From: a bacterium
GTDB taxonomy: Bacteria > Cyanobacteriota > Vampirovibrionia > Obscuribacterales > Obscuribacteraceae
Direction: 5' to 3'
Assembly (NCBI GenBank): GCA_018062085.1
Contig: JAGOSY010000012.1
Location: forward strand, 1 to 64,000
DNA: 64,000 bases
The notes beneath the pieces are model-generated. The model was not told the origin of the DNA, searched no databases, and was given only the letters and a program-made list of their open reading frames with translations. Within the stretch, counting starts at the first letter, position 1, and the number at the start of each line of letters is the position of its first letter. Below, piece after piece: positions 39,794 through 53,712 of this stretch. The translations under genes were made by a program, and so were the position numbers.

Positions 39794-40153
39794 TCAGTAG
39801 TTGTACTGATTCAGTGTGTGACAGCCGTTCGGTAGTGAAACTTGCGATGCCTCTAGGTTTCTGATGGCCTGAACAATTTGCTGATAACTCATGTTCTTGA
39901 TGCTGTCTTCATTCTGATACACCAATAGTACGCCCGGATGATTTCTCTTTGGCCTGGTTTCTTCGACAAAGTCATCGCAGTTGATTGTTAGTACAAGCAG
40001 GTTGTTTGCGCTAGCAAACTCAAGAACCTTCTTGTCTGTCAAGCCTTGCAGTCCAGCTTCTGTTGCAGTAAAGACTTTGTGTCCTTCTGTCCTTAGCTGT
40101 TCTACCAACATTTTTGCTTGAATGCACTCATCGACAAGGAGTGACAGTGTCAA
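39794..40153 (-). CDS. DUF5615-like PIN-fold protein, candidate toxin
   Basis: The 119-residue protein opens with LSLLVDECIQAKMLVEQLRTEGH and continues with VLEFASANNLLVLTINCDDFVEE. This pattern of acidic residues after hydrophobic strands is typical of the Mut7-C/DUF5615 PIN-like family, whose members often act as RNases with a small partner. It begins at a TTG inside the end of the upstream DUF433-like gene, overlapping by 26 bases, which indicates coupled translation. No later ATG would keep the first conserved strand, so the TTG is likely real. Confidence 0.7.
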   Translation of the reverse strand: MTLSLLVDECIQAKMLVEQLRTEGHKVFTATEAGLQGLTDKKVLEFASANNLLVLTINCDDFVEETRPKRNHPGVLLVYQNEDSIKNMSYQQIVQAIRNLEASQVSLPNGCHTLNQYNY

Positions 40154-40649
40154 CTTCTATACCTTTTTCTCTTAGTCGCCGTAACTCTTCTTGCGCTTCC
40201 ATACGAAGTAGATCTTGGTTAGATTCGCAGTATTCGATAATCTCGTTTACGGCTGCGGCGGGTAGATCCCAGTTGTCCATTGCTTGCTCTAAGCTCAAGT
40301 TATTGGTTTTGATGGCACTCCAAACCGCTGCCGCCGGTAGCTTCCTTCCTTTGACGTAGAGCTGTCGTTTCCATGGATGCTCGTGTGGAACCAGGTAGAG
40401 CAGAGGTTTCAAATCTGGTCTCTCGATTCCAAGCATGACAAACCGCCTTAGGTCCTCTCCTGGATGCCCGACAAAGAGCTGATTCCCCTTCTTTAGTTCG
40501 GCGGCCAAAAGTAATGTAGTGCGCACTGCCATCAAGAGGGCATCTTTTTTCGTAGGCGCGTCGATTACGTGTTGAAGCATCTCGATGGATGCCTGCTGTT
40601 CCGGGCTTACATCGAAATTTTCACGCTTAAGATCTTTCATTTTGGCCAT
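40128..40649 (-). CDS. DUF433-like protein, candidate antitoxin
   Basis: A 173-residue protein with a C-terminal part matching the DUF433 helix-turn-helix pattern: GRKLPAAAVWSAIKTNNLSLEQAMDNWDLPAAAVNEIIEYC (about residues 101-141). The N-terminal half has a helical segment (about 17-55) possibly involved in dimerisation, and the linker includes ELKKGNQLFVGHPGED. DUF433 and DUF5615 proteins frequently pair as putative toxin-antitoxin modules. This fits the 26-base overlap and order, antitoxin first. A longer-than-usual N-terminal part is present compared with the usual ~75-residue DUF433 proteins. Confidence 0.6.
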   Translation of the reverse strand: MAKMKDLKRENFDVSPEQQASIEMLQHVIDAPTKKDALLMAVRTTLLLAAELKKGNQLFVGHPGEDLRRFVMLGIERPDLKPLLYLVPHEHPWKRQLYVKGRKLPAAAVWSAIKTNNLSLEQAMDNWDLPAAAVNEIIEYCESNQDLLRMEAQEELRRLREKGIEVDTVTPCR

Positions 40650-40797: not shown

Positions 40798-40826
40798 TTG
40801 ACATTGCCTGGGTTGCCCTGTAGTGT
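40798..40826 (+). promoter_or_regulatory. Promoter of the argC leader
   Basis: TTGACA at 40798-40803, a 17-base spacer, and TAGTGT at 40821-40826. Transcription would begin around 40833, just before the leader ORF's AAGGTG Shine-Dalgarno (about 40840-40845). The -35 is a perfect consensus; the -10 is weaker. Confidence 0.6.
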
Positions 40827-40856
40827 CGACGTTAGATAAAAGGTGCTTCCATAAAC

Positions 40857-40934
40857 ATGCATTCGTTCAACACCAGCACATATACCAGCCGACGCCGCCG
40901 CGATTTCCTAGAGAACTCGGGGCCGATAACGTAG
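40857..40934 (+). CDS. Arginine leader peptide upstream of argC (attenuation)
   Basis: A 25-codon ORF starts at ATG 40857 and ends at TAG 40932-40934. Codons 12-15 are four consecutive arginine codons, CGA CGC CGC CGC (40890-40901). An AAGGTG Shine-Dalgarno is about 11 bases upstream. The stop codon lies inside a possible hairpin in which CGATAA (40924-40929) pairs with TTATCG (40951-40956), and an intrinsic terminator follows at 40965. The layout is that of a classical amino-acid attenuator: ribosomes stalling at Arg codons when charged tRNA-Arg is scarce would change leader folding and allow read-through into argC. Confidence 0.75.
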   Translation: MHSFNTSTYTSRRRRDFLENSGPIT

Positions 40935-40964
40935 CTGATATATAGCACTATTATCGTAATTGTC

Positions 40965-40995
40965 TCCCCGGGTTCTATGATCCGGGGATTTTTTT
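40965..40995 (+). terminator. Intrinsic terminator/attenuator in the argC leader
   Basis: TCCCCGG (40965-40971) pairs with CCGGGGA (40982-40988), and a run of seven T follows (40989-40995). It lies between the arginine leader ORF and argC, only 12 bases before the argC start, so it must be bypassed for argC expression. CGGGG at about 40918-40922 could pair with CCCCG in the left arm as an antiterminator, but I have not folded it computationally. Confidence 0.75.
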
Positions 40996-41007
40996 AGGGA
41001 AAATATC

Positions 41008-42129
41008 ATGGCAGTGCAGTTAGAACAATTGAAGACGCTTGAGAGCTCTAGCAGTAAAGAGGCAGAGAAGGCCGTAAAGAAAGTGGCTGTTGTCGGCGCT
41101 ACCGGCTACACAGGGCACGAGCTGGTGCGTCTATTGCTGCAGCATGGCCGGGCGCAGCTACAGACAGCCGTATCTCAAAGCAGCGATGGTAAGAAACTCG
41201 CTTCAGTCTATCCTGGCTTGCAAAAGCATACAGATCTTGTCTGTAGCAGCGGAGATCTCGAAGAGCTCGCTGAGCAAGTCGATTTGCTATTTCTCGCCCT
41301 ACCCCATGGTAATGCCGCGGGTAAAGTGACTAAGAGCATTCTGGCAAAGTGCAAAGTGATTGATCTTGGCGCTGATTTCCGTTTGAAGTCGGCCGCCGAC
41401 TACGAAACCTGGTACAAATTCAAGCATCCCCAGCCGGAGCTTTTGGCGCAGGCTGTCTATGGTTTGCCCGAGCTCAATCGTGCTGCTATTAGTCAGGCTA
41501 GTCTGGTAGCCAATCCGGGGTGCTATGCTACCTGCTCGATATTGACATTGGCACCACTTTTGCAGGCGGGCATAATTGACCCGAAGTCTATTATCATCGA
41601 CGCCAAGTCAGGTGTCTCGGGTGCTGGGAGAGCGGCAACATTAGGCACTCATTTCAACGAATGTAACGAGTCGATAAAAGCCTACGGAGTGGCCTGCCAC
41701 AGGCATACTCCGGAAATTGAAGAACAGCTCGCCGCCTTTAGCAAGACTGCATTTTGTACTTCCTTTACACCGCATCTGGTGCCGATGAATCGGGGCATTC
41801 TCGTCACCGCTTATGCGTCGCTTGTAAGTAATATAAATAAACAAGAGTTATATAATATATACAGTAAGTTCTATGAAAATGAGCTATTCATCAGGCTCTT
41901 CTCTCCTGACGACGCCGAGTACACGATGCCCGAAACACGTTTTGTAAAGGGCGTAAACTTCTGCGACATTGGTATGACAATCGACCAAAGAACCAATCGT
42001 GTCATTGCCGTCGGTGCCATAGATAATCTAGTGAAAGGCGCAGCTGGACAGGCTATACAGAACATGAATCTGTTATTCGGTTGGCCTGAATCTAGCGGAC
42101 TAAAGCAGTCAGCAATTTTTCCGGCGTGA
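41008..42129 (+). CDS. argC: N-acetyl-gamma-glutamyl-phosphate reductase
   Basis: The 373-residue enzyme reduces N-acetylglutamyl phosphate with NADPH in arginine synthesis. The NADP-binding loop is VAVVGATGYTGHELVRLLLQH (about residues 27-47). The catalytic Cys lies in LVANPGCYAT, and a VACHRHTPEIEEQL block and FTPHLVPMNRGIL follow. Length is slightly over the usual 345-350 because of a 25-residue N-terminal extension. An AGGGA Shine-Dalgarno is 7 bases before the ATG. Transcription appears to depend on read-through of the leader attenuator. Confidence 0.95.
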   Translation: MAVQLEQLKTLESSSSKEAEKAVKKVAVVGATGYTGHELVRLLLQHGRAQLQTAVSQSSDGKKLASVYPGLQKHTDLVCSSGDLEELAEQVDLLFLALPHGNAAGKVTKSILAKCKVIDLGADFRLKSAADYETWYKFKHPQPELLAQAVYGLPELNRAAISQASLVANPGCYATCSILTLAPLLQAGIIDPKSIIIDAKSGVSGAGRAATLGTHFNECNESIKAYGVACHRHTPEIEEQLAAFSKTAFCTSFTPHLVPMNRGILVTAYASLVSNINKQELYNIYSKFYENELFIRLFSPDDAEYTMPETRFVKGVNFCDIGMTIDQRTNRVIAVGAIDNLVKGAAGQAIQNMNLLFGWPESSGLKQSAIFPA

Positions 42130-42146
42130 TATTTTTTTAGAAATCG

Positions 42147-42175
42147 TTGACATAGGTGCGAAACCATCGTAACCT
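42147..42175 (+). promoter_or_regulatory. Promoter of the argJ leader
   Basis: TTGACA at 42147-42152, a 17-base spacer, and TAACCT at 42170-42175, placed 18 bases after argC's stop. The arrangement repeats that of the argC leader (consensus -35, weak -10, leader ORF about 25-30 bases later), giving argJBD an independent start. Confidence 0.55.
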
Positions 42176-42202
42176 TTCCAAAAGTTAGTGAGGCAATTTT
42201 CA

Positions 42203-42316
42203 ATGTTCGCTTCGGACAGCAAAAACCACATAAACAACTACTCAATCGGCCACTCTAGCAGCCGACGAAACTCGCGACGCCGCCTATTGCGCTTGGGTTT
42301 TATTTGGTTGTGTTGA
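42203..42316 (+). CDS. Arginine leader peptide upstream of argJ (attenuation)
   Basis: A 37-codon ORF runs from ATG 42203 to TGA 42314-42316, with GTGAGG about 9 bases upstream. Six codons are Arg: CGA CGA (42263-42268), CGA CGC CGC (42275-42283) and CGC (42290-42292). As in the argC leader, an AGC codon (Ser) precedes the first Arg cluster. The stop codon lies in a possible hairpin around 42306-42329 (GTTGAT with ATCAAC), and a terminator follows at 42340. This reproduces the argC leader design with a different peptide length. Function is inferred. Confidence 0.75.
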   Translation: MFASDSKNHINNYSIGHSSSRRNSRRRLLRLGFIWLC

Positions 42317-42339
42317 TTTGATCAACAACTAAATTTTTT

Positions 42340-42378
42340 ATCCCTGAGCGCAAGGCAAGCACTCAGGGATTTTTTTTC
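42340..42378 (+). terminator. Intrinsic terminator/attenuator in the argJ leader
   Basis: ATCCCTGAG (42340-42348) pairs perfectly with CTCAGGGAT (42362-42370) and is followed by a run of T (42370-42377). It stands 43 bases before argJ's TTG and after the arginine leader ORF, so it is likely the attenuator for argJBD rather than the terminator of argC. Confidence 0.8.
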
Positions 42379-42420
42379 ACGTATACGTCCATAGTGACAT
42401 GACAATCGGGAGACACAACT

Positions 42421-43749
42421 TTGAACTCAATAGCCAGATTACAAACCATTCAAAATGCAGCTACTACAGCTGTAGCGGCTGCCCCTAGTGTTCATAGCGG
42501 CCAGAAAGCGAACATAAGCGCTCTCGGTGCCGACGGTTGCACCGGCGGTGTCACTAGCCCTAAGGGGTTTATGGCAGCTGGCGCCCACATCGGCGTTAAA
42601 CGCAAACGCAAAGATCTTTCGCTAGTCTGGAGTGAGGTTCCAGCCCACCTGGCAGCGGCCTTTACTACCAATGTCATGAGAGCGGCACCAATTCTCTGGA
42701 ATGAAAAGGTTGTGGCAGGAGGAAAGCCAGTGCGCGGCATCGTCGTCAACAGCGGCAACGCCAACGCTTGCACCGGCGAGCTTGGCATGATCAATGCCGA
42801 GGTCATGGCCGCTACTTATGCCGATAGCATGGGCGTAGGCAAAGAAGAAATCATCATCGCTTCCACTGGAGTGATTGGTGTGCAACTGCCAATTCAGCTG
42901 ATCAAGCAGGGCATTGAGACTACCTGCCAAGATTTGGACTGCTCGGCTGAAGCCGGCTTGAGTGCGGCACAGGCAATCATGACCACAGACACCTATGTTA
43001 AGCAAACTGCGGTGGTATTCGAAGTAGATGGTAAGAAAGTCACCATCGGTGCCATGGCCAAGGGCAGCGGCATGATTCATCCAAATATGGCTACCATGCT
43101 CAGTTTTCTCACCACCGATCTGAATATTTCTCCGCTACTTCTCAATAAAGCCCTGAAAGAAAGCACAGCCGAAACATACAACATGATTAGTGTCGACGGT
43201 GACACCAGCACCAATGACATGGTTGCTATTCTTGCCAACGGCAAGGCAGGAAACAAACTGATCGATAGCGAAGGCAAAGACTATTTCACCTTCTGTCAGG
43301 CGCTGAAGACAATCAACATAGAATTGGCTCAAGCAATCGTGCGGGATGGCGAAGGTGCCACTAAATTTCTTGAGGTTCAGGTCAAGCACGCAGACTCTGT
43401 CGCAGAGGCACGCAAGCTGGCCCGTTCTATTGTTTCGTCTAGCCTAGTCAAAACAGCCTTCTTTGGTGAAGACGCCAACTGGGGCAGAATCATCTGTGCC
43501 ATGGGCTACAGCGGCGTTCAGTTCAAACCAGAAACTGTCTCAATCGCCATAGAAAGTGCTGGCGGCAAACTAGATTTGATGCAGGAAGGGGAGCCAGTCG
43601 TTGTCAACGAGATTCTCGGCAAAGCGGTGTTGGCAGAGAAAGACATAGTTATCCACATTGACATGAAAGCGGGCTTGAGTCAGGCAACAGCCTGGGGCTG
43701 CGACCTCAGCTATGAATATGTGCGCATCAACGGCTCATACAGGACATAG
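42421..43749 (+). CDS. argJ: Ornithine acetyltransferase/N-acetylglutamate synthase
   Basis: This 442-residue enzyme recycles the acetyl group from N-acetylornithine to glutamate. The characteristic self-cleavage region reads KGSGMIHPNMATMLSFL, with the Thr of MATM the expected new N-terminal nucleophile. Other family blocks are VVNSGNANACTG and IICAMGYSG. The start is the TTG at 42421 with GGGAG 8 bases before it. The usual length is about 400-410, and an extra 35 residues lie at the N-terminus. Its presence implies a cyclic acetyl pathway, so no separate argA or argE is required. Confidence 0.93.
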   Translation: MNSIARLQTIQNAATTAVAAAPSVHSGQKANISALGADGCTGGVTSPKGFMAAGAHIGVKRKRKDLSLVWSEVPAHLAAAFTTNVMRAAPILWNEKVVAGGKPVRGIVVNSGNANACTGELGMINAEVMAATYADSMGVGKEEIIIASTGVIGVQLPIQLIKQGIETTCQDLDCSAEAGLSAAQAIMTTDTYVKQTAVVFEVDGKKVTIGAMAKGSGMIHPNMATMLSFLTTDLNISPLLLNKALKESTAETYNMISVDGDTSTNDMVAILANGKAGNKLIDSEGKDYFTFCQALKTINIELAQAIVRDGEGATKFLEVQVKHADSVAEARKLARSIVSSSLVKTAFFGEDANWGRIICAMGYSGVQFKPETVSIAIESAGGKLDLMQEGEPVVVNEILGKAVLAEKDIVIHIDMKAGLSQATAWGCDLSYEYVRINGSYRT

Positions 43750-43758
43750 GTGGCAGAA

Positions 43759-44685
43759 ATGGTAGCTTCAATGAATTTAGCTTCAATAAATTTAAAATCA
43801 ATAAACCTTGAATCAGTGCCCGCGACTGCGACGCCATTGGTGCCCTTCAATCTCGCAACGGCGAAAGAGACGCTAAAACAGAACGCTTACGAAGTTGTCG
43901 TCTTGAAATTCGGCGGCAATGCCATTGGCAATGAGTCTGTGCTAGATGCCCTTATCGATGAAGCGGTTGTCCTGATTAAATCAGGCATTCATGTAATTGT
44001 TGTCCACGGCGGTGGTACTGCCGTCAACGATGCTTTGGCATCTATAGGTAAAGAGACGAAGAAGATAGACGGGCTGCGGGTAACTGATGAGGAGACCCTT
44101 TCTATTGCAGTCAAGGTATTCAGCGAGATAAACAAAAAACTCACTGAAAAATTTCGGAAGAGAGGTGTGAGCGCTTTGAGTTTTTGCTCTAAGTCAGAAA
44201 TACCTTTTCAAACCGAGAAAATGTCTGCCGATCTTGGCTGGGTCGGTGAAATAGTTGATGTTCGCTCTAAGGGTATTGAGAGCTGGATGTGGGCTGGCTG
44301 GACGCCCATAGTCTCGCCGCTTGGCATTGATGCTAGCGAGCAGTTTTATAACATCAACGCCGATCATGCCGCTCTGGCTTTGGCAATTAGTCTAGAGGCT
44401 GACGGCTTGATTTTCATGACCGACGTACCAGGCGTGCTTAAAGATTTCAATAAGCCGCAGTCTAGGATTGGCCATGTTACACCAACTAGTGCCCAAGAGC
44501 TTATAAAAGAGGGCACCGTTAGTGGCGGCATGCTGCCCAAAATCAAAAGTTGCGTCATGGGCATCAAGAACGGTATTAGACGCATTGCCATAATTAATAG
44601 CTTTGCACCAAACGCTCTTATCAGTGGTTTCTTAGCGCCGCAAGAGACAGGCACACTCATTACTGGAGATAAATATGACCACTAG
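43759..44685 (+). CDS. argB: Acetylglutamate kinase
   Basis: The kinase phosphorylates N-acetylglutamate. Family marks are VVLKFGGNAIGN, VHGGGTAVNDAL, GLRVTDEETL, ADHAALALA and GTVSGGMLPKIKSCVMGI. The ATG at 43759 is preferred because AGGTGG lies 5 bases before it; a GTG at 43750 directly after the argJ stop is possible. Length (308 residues) is near the usual 280-300. The gene is tightly packed between argJ and argD. Arg-sensitive forms carry a distinct N-terminal helix, and the 40-residue N-terminal extension here could provide that, but I cannot confirm it. Confidence 0.93.
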   Translation: MVASMNLASINLKSINLESVPATATPLVPFNLATAKETLKQNAYEVVVLKFGGNAIGNESVLDALIDEAVVLIKSGIHVIVVHGGGTAVNDALASIGKETKKIDGLRVTDEETLSIAVKVFSEINKKLTEKFRKRGVSALSFCSKSEIPFQTEKMSADLGWVGEIVDVRSKGIESWMWAGWTPIVSPLGIDASEQFYNINADHAALALAISLEADGLIFMTDVPGVLKDFNKPQSRIGHVTPTSAQELIKEGTVSGGMLPKIKSCVMGIKNGIRRIAIINSFAPNALISGFLAPQETGTLITGDKYDH

Positions 44686-45904
44686 TATATGCGCCGAATT
44701 TGCTCCCTCAGCCTCTACACAAAGCGATTGGGTAGAGCGTGGCAAGAAAGTACTGATGCAAACCTACGCCACCCAGCCTATGGTACTAACTGAGGGACAG
44801 GGAAGTTATGTTGAGGATGTCGACGGCAAAAGCTATCTCGACTTCGCCTCAGGCATTGCTGTCAATTCGCTTGGTCACTGCCATCCTACCTATGTTGAAG
44901 CGCTGACTAAGCAACTAAGTAAACTGAGCCATTGCTCCAATCTTTATTACAACCAGCCTGCCATTGAGCTGGCTGAAAAGCTTGTGGCAAATAGTGCTTT
45001 TGACCGGGCTTTCTTTTGTAATAGCGGTGCTGAAGCTGTAGAGGGCGCCCTCAAACTCAGTCGCAAGCATGCCAAGAAGCACAAAAGTGAGAACTGCACG
45101 AAGATTCTTACCATGAGCAATTCTTTTCATGGCCGCACTTATGGTGCCCTTTCGGCCACGGCTCAAACAAAATATCAGGAAGGCTACCACCCGCTGGTGC
45201 CGGACGTAAGTGTGGTTGAGTTCAACAATATTGCCTCGATACTGGCCAATGATTTAGATGCGGTCGCCGCCATAATTATCGAGCCGGTACAGGGCGAAGG
45301 TGGAGTGCACTTAGTTGATAGCAGTTTTCTCAAAGAAGTGAGAGTGCTCTGCGATAAGCACAATATTGTTTTGATATTTGATGAAATACAGTGTGGTGTC
45401 GGCCGCAGTGGCTACTTTTTTGCCAGTGAGAATTTTGCCGTGGCCCCAGACATCGTAGCGTTGGCCAAGGGCCTCGGCGGCGGCTTCCCTATCGGAGCAA
45501 TTCTGGCCAAAGAAAGTATCGCCAGTGCCTTCAATGCTGGTGAGCATGGTTCGACTTTTGGCGGCAATCCGATGGCTGCCTCAGCGGCATTAGCCTGTGT
45601 CAATATCATTGGCAACGAGCAGTTTTTAGGGTCTGTAAAGACTAAAAGTGAGCTGCTAGTAGCAGAGCTGGTAGACCTCAAGTCTATGCATCCATCAATA
45701 AAAGCAATTCGGGGATTGGGTCTGATGCTGGGAGTTGAGTTTGATATTCCAGTCAAGCCAATCATTGAGAAATGCGCAGCGCAAGGCCTTTTGCTCGTTG
45801 GTGCTGGCGAAAATGTCATACGGTTTCTGCCGCCTTTGACGGTAAGTGATGATGAGATTAATGAGGCAATTGGCATATTGGCGAATGTTTTGGGGACGCA
45901 ATAG
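44675..45904 (+). CDS. argD: Acetylornithine aminotransferase
   Basis: A 409-residue class III aminotransferase. Family motifs are LDFASGIAVNSLGHCHP, FCNSGAEAVEGALKLSR, IFDEIQCGVGRSG and PDIVALAKGLGGGFPIGA, whose Lys binds pyridoxal phosphate. It converts N-acetylglutamate semialdehyde to N-acetylornithine. The start overlaps argB by 11 bases, indicating coupled translation. No argF or argG lies in the window. Confidence 0.93.
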   Translation: MTTSICAEFAPSASTQSDWVERGKKVLMQTYATQPMVLTEGQGSYVEDVDGKSYLDFASGIAVNSLGHCHPTYVEALTKQLSKLSHCSNLYYNQPAIELAEKLVANSAFDRAFFCNSGAEAVEGALKLSRKHAKKHKSENCTKILTMSNSFHGRTYGALSATAQTKYQEGYHPLVPDVSVVEFNNIASILANDLDAVAAIIIEPVQGEGGVHLVDSSFLKEVRVLCDKHNIVLIFDEIQCGVGRSGYFFASENFAVAPDIVALAKGLGGGFPIGAILAKESIASAFNAGEHGSTFGGNPMAASAALACVNIIGNEQFLGSVKTKSELLVAELVDLKSMHPSIKAIRGLGLMLGVEFDIPVKPIIEKCAAQGLLLVGAGENVIRFLPPLTVSDDEINEAIGILANVLGTQ

Positions 45905-53616: not shown

Positions 53617-53712
53617 CGGGGATGCGTGGGAATCGAACCCACCCAGGACAGCGTAAATCTGCCCCGCAACGATTTTGAAGACCGCACACCACACCAGCGA
53701 TGCTCCATCCCC
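53617..53712 (-). tRNA. selC: tRNA-Sec (anticodon UCA), selC
   Basis: On the minus strand the 95-base body folds as a selenocysteine tRNA. A 7-bp acceptor stem is followed by a G-G mismatch at the eighth pair. The D arm has a 6-bp stem (CATCGC with GTGGTG) around a 4-base loop. The anticodon arm has the loop CTTCAAA with anticodon TCA. A long variable arm of about 8 bp (CGGGGCAG with CTGTCCTG) and a T arm GTGGG-TTCGATT-CCCAC complete it. The extra-long variable arm, 6-bp D stem and UCA anticodon are diagnostic of tRNA-Sec rather than a serine tRNA. A discriminator G is included; CCA is not encoded. Confidence 0.9.

Follow-up and report, generated by a model that had tools for sequence, protein, structure and literature searches.

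A short open reading frame with four consecutive arginine codons lies upstream of the arginine biosynthesis gene argC in a bacterium of the Obscuribacterales, and raises the question of whether the arg genes of this organism are controlled through the decoding of these codons. The Obscuribacterales belong to the Vampirovibrionia, little-studied non-photosynthetic relatives of cyanobacteria. Control of arg genes had been ascribed to ArgR and T-boxes, and to our knowledge arginine is missing from the amino acids for which sensing by classical attenuation has been described. We analyzed a stretch of 64,000 nucleotides, referred to here as the 64-kb window, for which a sequence-only reading had proposed an arginine attenuator in front of argC. 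We conclude, with a probability of about 0.9, that each of the transcription units argC and argJBD is controlled by ribosome-mediated transcription attenuation of the classical type, with charged tRNA-Arg as the signal sensed. No expression data and no wet-lab evidence stand behind this conclusion.

The arg genes and their surroundings

The gene argC, encoding N-acetyl-gamma-glutamyl-phosphate reductase, occupies positions 41008-42129 of the forward strand, and its product matches TIGR01850 above the cut-off (E=3e-133). The open reading frames of argJ (42421-43749), argB (43750-44685), and argD (44675-45904) lie on the same strand, 3' of a second attenuator. The names argJ, argB, and argD were assigned by reading the translations, without a family search.

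Two overlapping small genes are located upstream of argC on the opposite strand (39794-40153 and 40128-40649), and by eye the pair looks like one of the toxin-antitoxin type. The sequence upstream of the argC promoter differs in relatives from that in the 64-kb window. Elsewhere in the window, the reverse strand carries a selenocysteine tRNA gene (53618-53712; Rfam RF01852, 69 bits), which suggests that the lineage has a selenocysteine system.

Elements of the argC leader

The argC promoter (40798-40826, forward strand) is composed of a -35 element TTGACA (40798-40803), already noticed in the sequence-only reading, a 17-nucleotide spacer, and a -10-like element TAGTGT (40821-40826). The TTGACA is also found in those homologous leaders of relatives in which this part is readable, where the -10 variants are TAATGT and TAACTT. 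The promoter was not scored by a consensus promoter scan. The leader transcript is expected to start near 40833.

The leader peptide MHSFNTSTYTSRRRRDFLENSGPIT is encoded by 25 codons on the forward strand (40857-40934), from the ATG at 40857 to the TAG at 40932-40934. The start codon is preceded by AAAGGTG, which contains the Shine-Dalgarno motif GGTG. Four Arg codons in a row, CGA CGC CGC CGC, form the putative sensor at 40890-40901. The Shine-Dalgarno motif, the length of the reading frame, and the position of the Arg run are as the sequence-only reading had described them. Homologous argC leader reading frames occur in the loci L002-L004, L007, and L008, and in genus g21.

Folding of the full leader RNA predicts a 1:2 protector hairpin (40897-40923, forward strand), in which residues 40897-40899, 40901-40903, and 40905-40907 pair with 40913-40915, 40917-40919, and 40921-40923. 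Segment 1 (40897-40907), the possible partner of segment 2 (40912-40923), shares nucleotides with the third and the fourth Arg codon. The hairpin is weak at the argC of the window, with 9 base pairs interrupted by two 1x1 loops; its equivalent in genus g21 is predicted to be stronger. The 11-bp 2:3 antiterminator joins positions 40912-40922 with 40966-40976 of the forward strand (AGAACTCGGGG and CCCCGGGTTCT; RNA arms AGAACUCGGGG and CCCCGGGUUCU) and encloses the further pairs CGAUAA/UUAUCG and GCU/AGC. It was identified by RNA folding, by covariation, and by a detector that requires an Arg-rich short open reading frame, a terminator, and an antiterminator of at least 6 bp. A dyad over the stop codon had been listed as an element of its own; its halves are present (CGATAA 40924-40929 and TTATCG 40951-40956), but they form the inner part of the antiterminator.

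Segment 3 (40966-40976) is also the 5' arm of the intrinsic terminator, where its alternative partner is segment 4 (40979-40988). The terminator 3:4 (40965-40995, forward strand) consists of a ten-pair stem (40965-40988) and a U-run encoded by T7 (40989-40995), and it precedes the argC ATG at 41008, in agreement with the G/C-rich hairpin reported before. The argC leader has a short reading frame with a start codon and a Shine-Dalgarno motif between the promoter and the structural gene, and an intrinsic terminator between this reading frame and the first structural gene. The antiterminator and the terminator are mutually exclusive; across the leaders, the antiterminator helices have 6-12 bp and share the terminator 5' arm. 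The sequence-only reading had overlooked the antiterminator, the predicted protector hairpin at the Arg codons, and the second attenuator before argJ.

A second leader upstream of argJ

The argJBD promoter (42147-42175, forward strand) has the elements TTGACA (42147-42152) and TAACCT (42170-42175) separated by 17 nucleotides. It is kept in relatives, with TAATCT in locus L047. The argJ leader peptide MFASDSKNHINNYSIGHSSSRRNSRRRLLRLGFIWLC is encoded at 42203-42316 of the forward strand, as judged from the detector, the sequence, and relatives, and an alternative in-frame GTG start is possible at 42188. The peptide includes RRNSRRRLLR, with Arg runs of two and three residues, and the Arg codons are located at 42263-42268, 42275-42283, and 42290-42292. 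The reading frame is conserved in genera g1, g21, g22, g17, g19, and g23. The antiterminator, found by the detector and by comparison with relatives, pairs UUGCGCUUGGG (42287-42297) with CCUGAGCGCAA (42343-42353) on the forward strand. The intrinsic terminator, found by the detector and in the sequence, spans about 42340-42377 of the same strand and is formed by ATCCCTGAG and CTCAGGGAT, followed by T8.

As far as can be judged from the sequence, the argJ leader is a second complete and independent Arg attenuator in the 64-kb window. Apart from the 1:2 hairpin, which is a prediction and weak at the argC of the window, the leaders meet those structural criteria of an attenuator that a sequence can test; their response to Arg-tRNA is inferred.

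Specificity of the architecture and signs of selection on the encoded arginine

The detector yielded exactly two matches on both strands of the 64-kb window, both of them before arg genes, and three weak matches unrelated to arg genes on both strands of 0.92 Mb of other contigs of the same genome. It recovered all 14 leader-bearing argC loci and had no match in 60 argC upstream regions from outside the family (35 from other Vampirovibrionia and 25 from other Cyanobacteriota). In the family DNA that was retrieved, 49 of 50 distinct matches precede arg genes.

A run of at least four Arg residues is expected in a random 25-codon reading frame with p of about 1e-4, given the Arg content of the genome of 4.95%. 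The codon CGA makes up 28% of the Arg codons in leaders versus 12% in the long reading frames of the genome, and it is not used for any of the 37 Arg codons of argCJBD (41008-45904). Taken on its own, the short argC leader showed no purifying selection in codon-position statistics, which are too weak on reading frames of this length. The leaders contain in-frame indels of 12 nucleotides in locus L044 and 3 nucleotides in genus g21, and their Arg residues are retained through synonymous swaps that include CGA/AGA. The in-frame indels and these swaps indicate selection on the encoded arginine.

Leaders of several arg transcription units in the family

Of the 50 family genomes, 28 have at least one leader with Arg codons before argC, argJ/argB, argF(G), or argG, and these genomes are distributed over 11 genera (g1, g3, g8, g10, g16, g17, g18, g19, g21, g22, and g23). 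A covariance model (R1) built from the argC leaders was run on 289 genomes of the class. It revealed second, paralogous attenuators before argF, with argG as the usual next gene, in genera g1, g10, g16, g18, g21, and g22, and attenuators before argG in g3 and g17. The genome to which the window belongs also has a second argC-like leader at the end of a contig, reading into the start of argF, the N-terminus of which matches that of genome G004. A model of the argJ leader (R2) identified attenuators before argJ or argB in g1, g17, g19, g21, g22, and g23. The attenuator proposed in the sequence-only reading is supported, and its extent had been underestimated: a single argC leader was described where the architecture points to a regulon of several operons (argC, argJ/argB, argF, and argG).

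Matches of R1 in the family f5 genomes G155, G160, G220, and G245, and the R2 match G045:C209, were rejected for lack of a downstream arg gene. The R2 match G040:C233 (E=0.01) was left unassessed.

The argC leader peptides contain RRRR in genera g1 and g22 and SRRRPG in g21; the peptide of g8 is also rich in Arg and otherwise bears little resemblance to these. The g8 leader is unrelated in sequence, yet an Arg-rich reading frame, a 9-bp antiterminator, and a terminator recur in it. Each of the 14 argC leaders has an Arg run of three or more residues, and relatives differ by synonymous exchanges of CGA and CGC. The Arg runs, the stop position, the terminator, and the antiterminator are kept while the leader sequence diverges. 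A lack of conserved Arg codons or terminators in close relatives had been named as grounds for refutation, and the attenuator proposal survived this comparison.

The argC leader L016 (G036:C1, about 708045-708168) has a shorter peptide owing to a frameshift directly behind the Arg run, and the new stop codon still masks segment 2, the antiterminator arm. One assembly contains two argC loci (G043:C49 and G043:C445), both accompanied by a separate Arg leader and a separate argJ leader, which reflects either a duplication or a strain mixture.

Folding, covariation and spacing of the leaders

With a ribosome placed on the Arg codons, the argC RNA of the window folds as the antiterminator (-25 to -28 kcal/mol), and once the ribosome is at the stop codon the terminator is the sole structure remaining (-16.9 kcal/mol). 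The sequence-only reading had called for folding the leader in the stalled and unstalled states, and the two expected folds were obtained at this locus but not throughout the family. In several relatives, placing the ribosome on the Arg codons does not remove the preference of the minimum-energy fold for the terminator, and the argJ leader with a ribosome on its last Arg codons still has the terminator as its minimum-energy fold. Since the terminator is thermodynamically preferred in these cases, antitermination would have to be kinetic. In nascent RNA without the terminator 3' arm, the antiterminator is the minimum-energy fold of 14 out of 14 argC leaders.

The argC antiterminators of g1/g22 and g21 differ in two pairs changed on both sides (alignment columns 45-109 and 46-108), and 92% of the cells of the antiterminator alignment are paired. 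The argJ terminator exhibits double changes from C-G to U-A and from G-C to A-U across relatives, and the strand common to both structures keeps its pairing in the antiterminator by means of G-U pairs or compensation. Such a pattern would be expected of a strand that takes part in two alternative helices.

The distance from the Arg run to the start of the antiterminator arm is 3-19 nucleotides in most detected leaders, and from there the stop codon is a further 16-30 nucleotides away. With this spacing, a ribosome on the Arg codons could leave the arm free, and a ribosome at the stop codon could cover it. The mutually exclusive 2:3 and 3:4 helices, the compensatory changes, and the preserved geometry support the original proposal of an Arg attenuator, in which the dependence on arginine remains inferred.

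ArgR and T-boxes in the family

No match to ArgR (PF01316) was found in the genome of the window, the assembly of which is 88% complete. PF01316 is present in 8 of 50 family genomes (genera g7, g15, g19, and g23) and absent from every genome with an argC or argF/argG attenuator. Four genomes, G032, G033, and G034 from g19 and G046 from g23, have ArgR alongside an argB/argJ attenuator and are possibly intermediates between the two modes of control. A perfect exclusion of ArgR and attenuators was considered and dropped after the R2 model had found argJ/argB attenuators in the ArgR-bearing genera g19 and g23. The association between ArgR and attenuators has a Fisher p of 0.018 by genome and is not significant by genus (p=0.52).

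Covariance-model searches of the 50 family genomes gave no T-box match, and no Rfam cis-regulatory leader, T-box included, matched the argC leader above its gathering score. Reading frames with Arg runs upstream of argG in ArgR-bearing genomes were rejected, as by their coordinates they lie inside argR. The overlap is clear for G013, G025, G033, G034, G032, G014, and G046; G012 was left out.

Proposed mechanism and alternative explanations

The reading frames, Arg runs, terminators, and antiterminators, together with their geometry, conservation, and covariation, were observed. Translation of the leader, stalling, its effect on termination, and the response to arginine are inferred. When Arg-tRNA is ample, the ribosome would pass the Arg codons, reach the leader stop, and cover segment 2 (40912-40922). 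The terminator 3:4 would then form, and transcription would end before argC. Under a shortage of Arg-tRNA, the ribosome would stall on CGA CGC CGC CGC, melting the 1:2 hairpin and leaving segment 2 free. The free segment 2 could capture the terminator 5' arm in the 2:3 helix, so that RNA polymerase would continue into the arg genes. Equivalent leaders before argF(G) or argG in the same family would extend this control to an arginine regulon.

The residues that follow the Arg run are conserved within the g1/g22 argC clade (RRRRDFLENSG), which would also fit an arrest peptide acting as a nascent chain in the ribosome tunnel, where it would sense free arginine or ornithine instead of the decoding rate. 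SpeFL and the fungal arginine attenuator peptide are examples from other organisms of arrest peptides for Arg and ornithine. However, the RNA that encodes DFLENSG is explained by the antiterminator arm, and the Arg residues alone recur across the argC, argJ, argF, and argG leaders, the flanks of which are unrelated. Moreover, if plentiful free arginine arrested the ribosome, segment 2 would be exposed and the pathway switched on in times of plenty, which is the wrong sign. We consider an arrest peptide very unlikely.

Leader translation could instead influence the stability of the mRNA or be coupled to argC, either by reinitiation or by governing access to its ribosome-binding site, with the hairpin being no terminator. 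Upstream reading frames with Arg codons that work through occlusion of a ribosome-binding site or mRNA decay have been described (PMC13009471, PMC6386406). Such a role is hard to reconcile with the G/C-rich hairpins and subsequent U-runs at nearly all leaders, with the compensatory changes in the terminators, and with the position of the leader stop about 70 nucleotides upstream of argC, the start of which is outside the hairpin. A chance arrangement of an ordinary terminator of an upstream small transcript and a fortuitous Arg-rich reading frame is conceivable, as reading frames with Arg runs do arise in this manner, for example those out of frame upstream of argG. The conservation across genera and several arg units, the compensatory changes, and the near absence of the architecture elsewhere leave next to nothing in favor of coincidence. 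Ribosome-mediated attenuation by charged tRNA-Arg remains the preferred reading of the argC and argJBD leaders. It is also probable that they are part of the first arginine-specific leader-peptide attenuation regulon, in which argC, argJBD or argB, and argF-argG or argG of one Vampirovibrionia family each have their own Arg-codon attenuator, largely replacing ArgR, with the same geometry in unrelated sequences.

Comparison with known systems

A leader-peptide transcription attenuator of arginine biosynthesis with Arg codons was not found in the literature searched, most subscription papers being outside its scope, and the novelty suggested in the sequence-only reading is therefore probable, not proven. 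A survey from 2010 added Firmicutes to the Proteobacteria and Actinobacteria, the only groups in which leader-peptide systems had been known (PMC2965389), and a study of Actinobacteria from 2005 listed arginine as T-box controlled (PMC1262725).

The Salmonella speF leader orf34 contains consecutive Arg codons, and ribosome pausing there alters RNA folding (PMC6386406). Unlike the arg leaders, it controls ornithine decarboxylase through Rho, RNase G, and access to the ribosome-binding site; no intrinsic-terminator attenuator is described there, and the operon is not one of arginine biosynthesis (PMC6386406). The upstream reading frame of rbfL-rbf from S. aureus senses Arg supply by Arg codons, but it occludes the ribosome-binding site of a biofilm regulator, with the opposite sign and without transcription attenuation (PMC13009471). 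A carA(B) leader peptide in P. aeruginosa and a predicted attenuation of carA in P. syringae are cited in PMC4997734. The Pseudomonas leader resembles the arg leaders in preceding an arginine/pyrimidine gene and differs from them in that this gene is shared by the two pathways, and it may count as a partial precedent. ArgR repression and arginine T-boxes also make arginine biosynthesis follow arginine status; however, ArgR is a protein repressor that acts on DNA, and a T-box binds tRNA directly.

An arg regulon under attenuators, including genomes without a recognizable ArgR, would represent a natural swap of a repressor for an RNA switch, and would extend the reach of leader-peptide attenuation to Cyanobacteriota. 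The leaders of unrelated sequence reveal what selection keeps: the Arg run, the spacing, the stop position, and the shared terminator arm. The mechanism is of a known kind, and its arginine specificity over an arg regulon in Cyanobacteriota appears to be undescribed. Like the leader-peptide attenuators of the trp, his, leu, ilv, thr, and phe genes, the arg leaders have a short reading frame with a run of codons for the product of the pathway, alternative 2:3 and 3:4 hairpins together with a predicted 1:2 hairpin, a terminator with a U-run before biosynthetic genes, and a stop codon set to mask segment 2. They differ from these attenuators in their specificity for arginine, in their distribution over several separate arg units, and in their occurrence in Vampirovibrionia (Cyanobacteriota).
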